Of a stretch of DNA of 64,000 nt, positions 22,335 through 47,498 are shown one piece after another (the stretch's first letter is position 1; every line of letters starts with the position of its first letter). The notes beneath the pieces are model-generated. The model saw only the letters and a list, made by a program, of their open reading frames with translations. It searched no databases and was not told the DNA's origin. Both the position numbers and the translations under genes were made by a program. This DNA is from Herbidospora daliensis (GTDB taxonomy: Bacteria > Actinomycetota > Actinomycetes > Streptosporangiales > Streptosporangiaceae), in NCBI RefSeq assembly GCF_001570585.1, contig NZ_BBXF01000004.1, positions 372,001 through 436,000 of the forward strand. The letters run 5' to 3'.

Positions 22335-22640
22335 TTATGGATGGTCGTCCACGGCTTCCCCCCGGAGGACCTCGTTCTGGTCCTCCCACCAGGGCGGCAC
22401 TTCCTTGATCAACCCGGCGTGCCGCCGGGCCACCCGGACGGCGCACCCGCGCGGATCATCTCCTGGGTGCCGACATCGGGAGGCACCTTCCCACCAGCGG
22501 AAACAGCCATCGCGATAGACGACCACCAGGCCGATCCACACACAGAGCGTAGCGTCGTCACCCAGCTCGTAGGCGCCGTTCACGCCGAGTTCGATCAAGT
22601 CCGAATGCAGTTTTTGTATAGCTGCGCGGGACTCACTCAC
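22335..22640 (-). CDS. Small conserved-looking protein of unknown function
   Basis: 101 residues from GTG 22640, which has GGAGG seven bases upstream. The sequence has LHSDLIELGVNGAYELGDDA followed by a beta-rich WIGLVVVYRDGCFRWWEG and a WW pair near the end. No signal peptide or membrane span. The early part of the gene is less GC-rich at third positions than its neighbours. I do not recognise a family. It sits upstream of, and co-directional with, the deacetylase. Confidence 0.6.
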   Translation of the reverse strand: MSESRAAIQKLHSDLIELGVNGAYELGDDATLCVWIGLVVVYRDGCFRWWEGASRCRHPGDDPRGCAVRVARRHAGLIKEVPPWWEDQNEVLRGEAVDDHP

Positions 22641-24594: not shown

Positions 24595-25182
24595 CTAGGC
24601 GGCTATCGCCTCTCTGACCACGCCCTCCTCGCGGGCGTAGCCCTCCAGCATGCCGCGCAGCTGACGCCGGCCGCGGTGCAGCCGCGACATGACGGTCCCG
24701 ATGGGGGTGCCCATCCGGTCGGCGATCTCCTTGTAGGCGAAGCCCTCGACGTCGGCGAGGTAGACGGCCACCCGGAACTCCTCGGGCAGCGAACGCAGGG
24801 CGTTCATCACGACGTTGTCGGGCAGCGAGTCGAGCGCCTCGTTCTCGGCCGAGCGCAGCCCCGTCGAGGTGTGCGACTCGGCGGCGGCGAGCTGCCAGTC
24901 TTCGATCTCCTCGGCGGCCGACAGCTTCGGCGAGCGCTGCTTCTTGCGGTAGTCGTTGATGAAGTTGTTGGTGAGGATGCGGTGCAGCCACGCCTTGAGG
25001 TTGGTGCCCTCGCGGAACTGGTGGTAGGACGTGAACGCCTTGGTCACGGTCTCCTGCACGAGGTCTTCGGCGTCGGCCGGGTTGCGGGTGAGTCGCATGG
25101 CTGACGCGTAGAGCTGGCTGGTCACCGGCACGACGTCGCGCTCGAACCAGGCCTGACGCTGCTCGTCGGTCATCGAGATCAT
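24595..25182 (-). CDS. sigR: ECF sigma factor SigR/SigH type (thiol-oxidative stress)
   Basis: 195 residues from ATG 25182, with GGGGGATG just upstream. Region 2 reads [25 protein letters not shown] and [19 protein letters not shown]; the linker [23 protein letters not shown] and region 4 ([38 protein letters not shown]) are nearly as in Streptomyces SigR. SigR controls thioredoxin, mycothiol and protein-quality genes and is held by the zinc anti-sigma RsrA, whose gene normally follows. Here the next base range belongs to the convergent YCII gene, so rsrA is not adjacent. I found no clear GGGAAT-N18-GTT autoregulatory promoter upstream. Confidence 0.9.
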
Positions 25183-45851: not shown

Positions 45852-46784
45852 TCATCCTCGGAAGTGATCCCAACCCCCCGGGACATTCTCGCGCCCTCCG
45901 GCCTGTACTCCATCCCCTTCGGCCACATTTCCTACAATCCGCCACTCGGAAGGCAGGAGAACCCCCGATGGGAAGGTCGCCGCGAGCGCGTGGTCCTCGC
46001 CTCCGGTGAGGATCCAGTCGACGGGGTCGGCCCCGAGGGCCTTGGCCGCCGCCGCGAGGTCGTCGGGCACCTCGACGGGGTCGAGCACGATCGCCACCCC
46101 GCTGGCCGCGCAGATGTGGCCGAGGTCCTGCATGAGGCCGTCGCTGACGTCGAGCATCGCGGTGGCGCCCAGCGCGGCTGCCCGGGGGCCCTCGCGGTAG
46201 GGCGGCCGGGGTTGCCGGTGCGCCTCCACCAGATCGTCAAAACCTGACAATCCCGCCAGAAGCAGTCGCAAACCGGCCTCAGAACGCCCCAGAGGGCCCG
46301 TCACGGCCACGACGTCGCCCGGCCGGGCCCCCGACCGCAACACGGCCGAGCGGCCCTGGAGATCTCCCAGGGCGGTCACGCCCAGCACCACGGAGGAGGA
46401 GCGGGTCACGTCTCCCCCGGCCAGGCTCGCCCCGACGAGGGCGCACTCGTCCCGGAGTCCGTCGATCAGCGCGTCGAGCCAGTCGACCGGCAGGTCGGCG
46501 GGTATGCCGAGGCCCACGAAAAGCCCCGTCCCCACCGCCCCCATGGCCGAGATGTCGGAAAGATTCTGAGCTGCGGCTTTTCGGCCTATTTCGTACGGGC
46601 TGGACCAATCGCGGCGAAAGTGTCTACCCTCAAGGAGCATGTCCGTCGTGACGACGACCCTGCCGTCAGGAGCGCGCAGGATCGCCGCGTCGTCGCCTGG
46701 GCCGAGGAGGACTGTCGCGCCTTGGGGCAGACGCCCCGATATCCGGCTAACAACACCGAATTCGCCGAGTTCTCCGACTGTGAT
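45852..46784 (-). CDS. thiL: Thiamine-monophosphate kinase with probable ATC start codon
   Basis: 310 residues if translation begins at ATC 46784. The frame (I)TVGELGEFGVVSRISGRL, LLGPGDDAA and TTDMLLEGRHFRRDWSSP is the complete ThiL N-terminus, and TVGELGEFG is where ThiL proteins begin. AGGAGG lies six bases before the ATC. No ATG, GTG or TTG exists in frame between a stop upstream and ATG 46640; starting there would remove 48 residues including the metal-binding GPGDD. Later motifs (NLSDISAMGAVGTGLFVGLG, GGDVTRSSS, LDVSDGLMQDLGH, LTGGEDHALAATFP) are intact. It makes thiamine diphosphate from the monophosphate. A one-base error or mutation (ATG to ATC) is the alternative. Confidence 0.88.
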   Translation of the reverse strand: MTVGELGEFGVVSRISGRLPQGATVLLGPGDDAAILRAPDGRVVVTTDMLLEGRHFRRDWSSPYEIGRKAAAQNLSDISAMGAVGTGLFVGLGIPADLPVDWLDALIDGLRDECALVGASLAGGDVTRSSSVVLGVTALGDLQGRSAVLRSGARPGDVVAVTGPLGRSEAGLRLLLAGLSGFDDLVEAHRQPRPPYREGPRAAALGATAMLDVSDGLMQDLGHICAASGVAIVLDPVEVPDDLAAAAKALGADPVDWILTGGEDHALAATFPSGVLLPSEWRIVGNVAEGDGVQAGGRENVPGGWDHFRG

Positions 46785-46848
46785 GTCACACCTCCTGGTG
46801 TTCGGGGTACCTTGACCTTTCGGTGGTGATCAATCCCGGGAGGACCTG

Positions 46849-47082
46849 ATGGTGCAGGCCTACATCCTTATCCAGACCGAGGTCGGCAAGGCCGCAGCGG
46901 TGGCCGAGACCATCGCGAAGATCCCAGGGGTCACCCAAGCCGAAGACGTGACCGGCCCCTACGACGTGATCGTCCGGGCCGAGGCCAACAACGTCGACGA
47001 GCTCGGCAAGCTGGTGGTCGCCCAGATCCAGTCCGTCAAAGGCATCACGCGCACGCTGACCTGCCCTATCGTCCACATATGA
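46849..47082 (+). CDS. Stand-alone Lrp/AsnC ligand-binding (RAM) domain protein
   Basis: 77 residues with GGGAGG upstream: MVQAYILIQTEVGKAAAVAE, then GVTQAEDVTGPYDVIVRAEA and the end LTCPIVHI. It is the effector-binding half of Lrp/AsnC regulators without the DNA-binding half, a form widespread in actinobacteria beside thiL. It may modulate full-length Lrp proteins or bind amino acids. It overlaps the next gene by four bases (ATGA). Confidence 0.88.
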   Translation: MVQAYILIQTEVGKAAAVAETIAKIPGVTQAEDVTGPYDVIVRAEANNVDELGKLVVAQIQSVKGITRTLTCPIVHI

Positions 47083-47498
47083 AGCGTGGCTGGTTGATCG
47101 TGGCGGTCCTGGCGGCCGGGTGTGCCCAGGCCGTGAGCCTCGACCCGCCGGCTCCCGGAGGGGCCGCCGCGACCGCCTGCCAGGCCCTGGCCAAGAGACT
47201 GCCGGCCACCATCGAGGGGCTGGCCCGGACCGAGACCGATCCGGTGTCCCCCTACACCGCCGTGTGGGGGCCCGGGGAGATCGCGCTCCGCTGCGGCGTC
47301 GACCGCCCGGCCTCGATGGAGGCCACCGCCGAGGTGAGCGACGTCAACGGGGTCGGCTGGTTCGCCGACCCCGCCCGGCCGACCCTGTTCACCTCGGTCA
47401 ACCGCGAGGCGTACGTCGAGGTCACGATCTCGGCGAACCATCAGCCGGGCAGCGTCCTGGTCGACCTGGCCGACCCGATCAAGGCCACGATCCCCTAG
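47079..47498 (+). CDS. DUF3515 lipoprotein
   Basis: 139 residues. The signal peptide MKRGWLIVAVLAAGC ends in a lipobox. The rest (ACQALAKRLPATIEGLARTE, WGPGEIALRCGV, VGWFADPARPTLFTSVNREAYVEVTI) matches DUF3515, an actinobacterial family usually encoded between ddl and thiL. Function unknown. It is translationally coupled to the RAM-domain gene and shares a CTAG with the convergent ddl. Confidence 0.87.
   Translation: MKRGWLIVAVLAAGCAQAVSLDPPAPGGAAATACQALAKRLPATIEGLARTETDPVSPYTAVWGPGEIALRCGVDRPASMEATAEVSDVNGVGWFADPARPTLFTSVNREAYVEVTISANHQPGSVLVDLADPIKATIP

Follow-up and report, generated by a model that had tools for sequence, protein, structure and literature searches.

The thiL gene of Herbidospora daliensis, encoding thiamine-monophosphate kinase, an enzyme in the formation of active vitamin B1, raises two questions: which codon starts its translation, and why that codon has been kept. 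The gene lies on the minus strand at positions 45852 to 46784 of the window, by which we mean the whole stretch of 64,000 nucleotides that was analysed, and consists of 310 codons and a stop (at 45852), the first codon being ATC. The 310-residue product exceeds the cut-offs of two curated ThiL profiles along its whole length, TIGR01379 (280.6 bits, cut-off 184.15) and NF004351 (428.7 bits, cut-off 324), and aligns over residues 4-308 with the solved ThiL structures 1vqv and 3c9r. Residue 4 of the query pairs with residue 4 of 1vqv, so that residue 1 sits where the N-terminus is expected. The thiL model found five matches in this genome, and the gene at 45852-46784 was the sole one above the cut-off; a second thiL copy was rejected, the other four matches being weak and below it.

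On the minus strand the context of the start is ...CACCAGGAGGTGTGAC ATC ACAGTCGGAGAACTCGGCGAATTC, with the ATC at 46782-46784 (first base 46784). An extended Shine-Dalgarno sequence, AGGAGGTG (46789-46796), ends 4 bases before this codon, its AGGAGG core ends 6 bases before it, and the region as a whole reads AGGAGGTG TGAC ATC ACA GTC GGA. The residues TVGELGEFG follow the ATC directly. Upstream, an in-frame TGA stop is found at 46830-46832, and the 15 codons between it and the ATC include no ATG, GTG or TTG. Downstream, the first canonical codon in frame is the ATG at codon 49, beyond the GDDAA motif (GDDA begins at residue 30). There is accordingly no usable ATG, GTG or TTG in frame, and a different codon stands behind the Shine-Dalgarno sequence. 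The first-pass annotation had proposed from these features that thiL starts with ATC, and the present analysis bears this out: judged by sequence comparison, AUC is almost certainly the start codon. Two of the codons after it, ACA and GGA, are rare, making up 0.023 and 0.034 of their families in the long frames of the window.

Standard gene callers allow only ATG, GTG and TTG, and are therefore likely to misplace or truncate thiL. As the first canonical codon in frame, the ATG at codon 49 is the one they would presumably pick. Translation from this ATG, with the first 48 codons serving as an untranslated leader, is nevertheless hardly credible: codons 1-48 correspond to the conserved N-terminal part of ThiL, including the GDDAA motif, the curated models and the solved relatives cover this part, and just 9 of the first 49 codons vary among seven genomes of the genus. 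A start from the GTG at 46789, in another frame and followed by a frameshift, was also rejected, since this GTG is missing at that place in Nonomuraea (L024) and Actinoallomurus (L040). Rfam yielded no matches in 46500-47100, around the start, and RNA structure at the start was unremarkable (z −0.65 and 0.33). The genome has two copies of the motif AGGAGGTGNNNNATC, one at thiL and the other ahead of a frame of 12 codons, compared with four of a reversed control, so the motif by itself is uninformative.

The ATC start of thiL was present in all seven Herbidospora genomes examined. The first-pass annotation had offered a recent mutation as one explanation of the unusual codon; this is contradicted by the genus and by the many other genera with ATC or ATT at the same site. 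The chance that the codon stems from faulty sequencing or assembly, or arose recently in a single strain, is practically negligible, as the same comparisons refute it and nothing was found in its favour. Variation within the genus affects 5 of the first 30 codons of thiL versus 150 of the other 281. The 105 bases upstream and the gene through codon 12 (46749-46889, minus strand) are invariant among the seven genomes, which may reflect a shared promoter region or another constraint there. A second invariant block in the genus lies near the 3′ end of thiL (45900-45944; +840 to +884, counting the A of ATC as 0). The gene for initiation factor IF3, infC (L221-L227; G000:C1:26815-27318 in this genome), likewise has ATC after GGAGG in all seven genomes, with no canonical codon between its upstream TGA and the ATC, an indication that ATC does serve as a start codon in these cells.

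Relatives were compared at this codon in several samples. In a set of 80 loci named by organism, ATC was found at the thiL start in 13 (four Herbidospora, two Nonomuraea, three Acrocarpospora, two Microbispora, one Sphaerimonospora and one Actinoallomurus MAG); the four Herbidospora loci match four of the seven Herbidospora genomes without a difference over 3.6 kb and are not independent cases, and some other loci of the 80 may likewise repeat genomes counted elsewhere. The remaining 67, nearly all from Streptomycetaceae, have no usual start codon at the site, and carry ATG (56) or GTG (10) two codons upstream, with L098 as the exception. Among 297 genomes of the family, 294 have a thiL match. 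A narrow start pattern matched 28 of the 297, with ATC or ATT throughout among the matches listed, and a wider start-region pattern matched 155 places in 153 genomes, where the codons were ATC (140), ATT (10), ATA (1), GTT (1), ATG (2) and TTG (1); both patterns accept a codon only if its second base is T and its first is A, G or T, a restriction that makes conservation look higher than it is. For five of the 155 places (G018, G034, G062, G098, G102) the codon comes from retrieved DNA. Neither the TTG (G249) nor the ATG of G216 shares a contig with the best thiL match of its genome, leaving 153 places that were taken as thiL without checking each singly, two of them from G184. The other ATG, in G052, belongs to a thiL with an ordinary start, and G102 is ambiguous, since a GTG in frame precedes its ATC by three codons. 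G129 (L252) has GTT at the site and no visible Shine-Dalgarno sequence, and G097 (L251) has ATA. The matches span 37 of 68 genus groups, or 34 when groups represented solely by G249, G052 or G102 are left aside, so that 34 of the 68 sampled genus groups of one family have AUC or AUU, rarely AUA or GUU, where thiL starts, usually behind a long Shine-Dalgarno sequence whose spacing hardly varies. The 144 family genomes unmatched by the wider pattern include many that start thiL elsewhere.

A sample drawn blind to the codon gives a fairer estimate than the patterns, although it favours better matches and close relatives and is not random. It consisted of 90 loci (L129-L218) found by protein similarity and aligned to the ThiL of the window, 60 of them picked for spread among the family thiL matches listed and 30 from a further set. 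Here the codon was ATC in 54 and ATT in one (55 together), ATG in one, GTG or TTG in none, and in 34 some codon that does not usually start translation; two of these 34 (L212, L217) have ATC after GGAGGTG further upstream. The noncanonical start codon is thus conserved in relatives, and it recurs through genus and family, more widely than the first-pass annotation had claimed. That annotation had also named what would count against it, namely relatives with ATG at the site together with a second thiL in this genome. This combination was not found: ATG at precisely this site occurs in a single genome, G052, the start lies elsewhere in other relatives, and the Herbidospora daliensis genome holds no second thiL above the cut-off.

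Across a class-wide sample of 394 genomes, 23 carried the pattern, here too restricted in the codons that it accepts; 17 of them belong to the family and 6 lie outside it. Two of the six are thiL with ATC, both from family group f31 (L228, L229), and the other four, when read, did not look like thiL. In L228 the spacing is longer, and canonical codons occur farther upstream. In relatives lacking the ATC, thiL has an ATG at the preceding codon or else a GTG that closely follows TACCCT. The latter arrangement, with the GTG about 7 bases after TACCCT, was seen in L169-L171, L175, L176, L178, L190, L193, L196, L197, L199, L200, L203, L207 and L209, and from its sequence resembles the beginning of a leaderless transcript.

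The anatomy of the start region was compared across 161 loci, of which 123 matched the start-region patterns and gave 100 distinct sequences of 150 bases. The codon is ATC in 87, ATT in 10, and ATA, GTT and ATG in one each, leaving 99 noncanonical sequences. The spacing between the AGGAGG core and the codon is 6 bases in 75 of the 99 and 5 bases in 15, and 61 share GGAGGTG or more of the complement of the anti-Shine-Dalgarno sequence. Weaker Shine-Dalgarno sequences were also seen, with GGTG only in 17, GGAG only in one, and nothing in one (the GTT of L252). In 42 of the 99 no canonical codon occurs back to the in-frame stop, and in L108 (TAG GTC ATC), L166 (TAA GAC ATC), L229 (TGA GAG ATC) and L255 there is just one codon between the stop and the start. 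A canonical codon stands in frame within 12 codons upstream in 41, and in the remaining 16 it is farther off or the fetched stretch ends first.

These 41 sequences, for instance Microbispora with ATG CAC AAG GGG TGT GCC ATC, are compatible with an upstream thiL start in the species concerned. They are also what would speak for a true start at a canonical GTG or ATG 6-8 codons upstream in relatives, the ATC being internal. As an account of the site this is very improbable. For the window it is refuted, as the canonical codon is missing there and in the 42 sequences noted above. Among relatives, the same ATG is followed by TAG in L136, L137, L140, L152 and L211, and has become ATA in L143. Moreover, the upstream codons mostly lie on or just after a −10-like TACNNN and before the Shine-Dalgarno sequence, and are thus probably outside the mRNA. 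In the window the −10-like hexamer, read by eye, is TACCCC (46804-46809, minus strand), and many relatives have TACCCT, TACCTC or TACCGT at about the same place. Of the 99 sequences, 66 contain CCGTA within 45 bases upstream of the codon, and in 63 of the 66 the TA of this motif lies 25-28 bases ahead of the codon; the motif is missing in the other 33, including the window, which reads GGTACCCC at a similar place. The placement of the hexamer suggests a very short leader of about 12-20 bases. Further upstream in the window lies a divergent gene (46849-47082, plus strand) whose product of 77 amino acids has an Lrp/AsnC ligand-binding domain. Of 38 long loci, 37 have the same divergent neighbour and the last one is truncated; thiL therefore has no upstream gene on the same strand there to couple to, which makes translational coupling unlikely.

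A different reason for the constancy of the letters would be an overlapping DNA element. The inverted repeat TGTGACATCACA (46779-46790) spans the thiL start codon in Herbidospora and Acrocarpospora, and together with the invariant bases upstream and through codon 12 in the genus it could be taken to mean that the ATC is kept by such an element and not by its role as a start. The repeat is not conserved in the loci of Nonomuraea, Microbispora, Sphaerimonospora or Actinoallomurus, and its flanking letters vary across the family, while the A of the codon is retained in 98 of the 99 sequences and the T in all 99 (column counts, partly forced by the search pattern). We regard this explanation as quite improbable, and retain the reading of the ATC as the start.

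Granting that AUC is the start, its weakness might be neutral: a strong Shine-Dalgarno sequence would compensate for it, little ThiL would be needed, and the codon would persist by drift, without any control by IF3. The long Shine-Dalgarno sequences of the 61 distinct sequences are in keeping with this, and ThiL is a low-demand enzyme. Against it, a single base change would convert ATC to ATG, yet ATG was found in G052 alone among the 153 thiL places. The history of the start points the same way, since parsimony requires only four changes between noncanonical and canonical thiL starts over 62 labelled rows, or three without seven doubtful rows, the labels being our own reading of the start regions. 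These rows come from a quick tree of 63 ThiL proteins, in which 18 of the 56 inner branches were starred and 20 open, and one short row was dropped. Neutral weakness is therefore rather unlikely, though it deserves more weight than the other alternatives. The long conservation indicates that the weak start is probably under selection; having been kept for so long, the ATC probably benefits the cell, and its likeliest use is as a brake under the control of a translation factor.

The codons AUC, AUU and AUA differ from AUG at the third base, and IF3 discriminates against such starts. In the mechanism that we propose, the extended Shine-Dalgarno sequence AGGAGGTG, at a short and nearly fixed spacing, would place the 30S subunit on the thiL AUC, initiator fMet-tRNA would read this codon with a mismatch at the third position, and IF3 would discriminate against the resulting complex. 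The outcome would be a weak, IF3-sensitive start, with ThiL kept low and its synthesis rising and falling with IF3 activity. For the mismatch, the low yield and the sensitivity to IF3, we infer from infC, sigR, and ccpN and cvfC1 of Staphylococcus aureus. Taken jointly, an AUC start and weak, IF3-sensitive initiation are likely. The first-pass annotation had suggested weak initiation that limits ThiL, perhaps tied to the level of an initiation factor; of the readings considered this is the best supported, the tie to IF3 being drawn by analogy. Whether cells go on to tune ThiL with IF3 activity is more tentative, and we put it at somewhat less than an even chance. A similar degree of caution applies to the broader idea that an actinomycete lineage has, by way of a near-cognate start codon, kept its vitamin B1 kinase in an IF3 regulon for the age of the family, with IF3 setting the supply of thiamine pyrophosphate.

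Among known systems, the Streptomyces sigR gene is described in passages of PMC5472188 as having the ribosome binding site AGGAGGTG and a GTC start that is repressed by IF3, the start being GTC in 32 of 34 cases and GTT in 2. Like thiL, sigR is an actinomycete gene with the extended AGGAGGTG, a GTG inside the Shine-Dalgarno sequence as a decoy, and a noncanonical start conserved across species. Unlike thiL, with its ATC or ATT, it encodes a regulatory sigma factor and starts with GTC, and IF3 repression has been demonstrated for it, whereas for thiL we infer it. The same passages give the start of infC as ATT in E. coli and ATC in Streptomyces (PMC5472188). In Herbidospora, infC resembles thiL in having the same codon in the same genome, led by a Shine-Dalgarno sequence, with no canonical codon in frame; the difference is that infC autoregulates, whereas thiL could only follow IF3. 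The E. coli pcnB gene, with its ATT start, is another enzyme gene with an AUU-type start, but from another lineage. For S. aureus, passages of PMC13009471 describe conserved AUU and AUA starts with extended Shine-Dalgarno sequences and a reduced yield. There ccpN (AUA) and cvfC1 (AUU) share with thiL the conserved weak start and the extended Shine-Dalgarno sequence, but they come from a Firmicute, encode a repressor and a small protein, and have been studied by ribosome profiling and reporters (PMC13009471). Few noncanonical-start genes have been characterised, as stated in PMC5472188, and passages of PMC11497404 concern CUG and add little here. No report of a noncanonical thiL start was found among the top matches in the open-access literature.

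The other noncanonical-start genes named here are mostly regulators, whereas thiL encodes a metabolic enzyme. Its homologues are a natural series in which to compare how weak initiation depends on IF3 and on the strength of the Shine-Dalgarno sequence. If the link to IF3 is true, it would join the level of a translation factor to a central cofactor, and place a housekeeping metabolic gene from outside the translation apparatus in the IF3 regulon.

A census of the window for Shine-Dalgarno sequences followed by a noncanonical codon without an alternative returned many chance frames. One candidate, at 22375 on the minus strand, was rejected because it lies inside a polysaccharide deacetylase gene (Pfam PF01522) that has an ordinary ATG further in. 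The window also holds a gene for a sigma factor of the SigR/SigH type (24613-25176), above the TIGR02947 cut-off and one of two such genes in the genome; it is the other of the two that has in-frame ATG codons.
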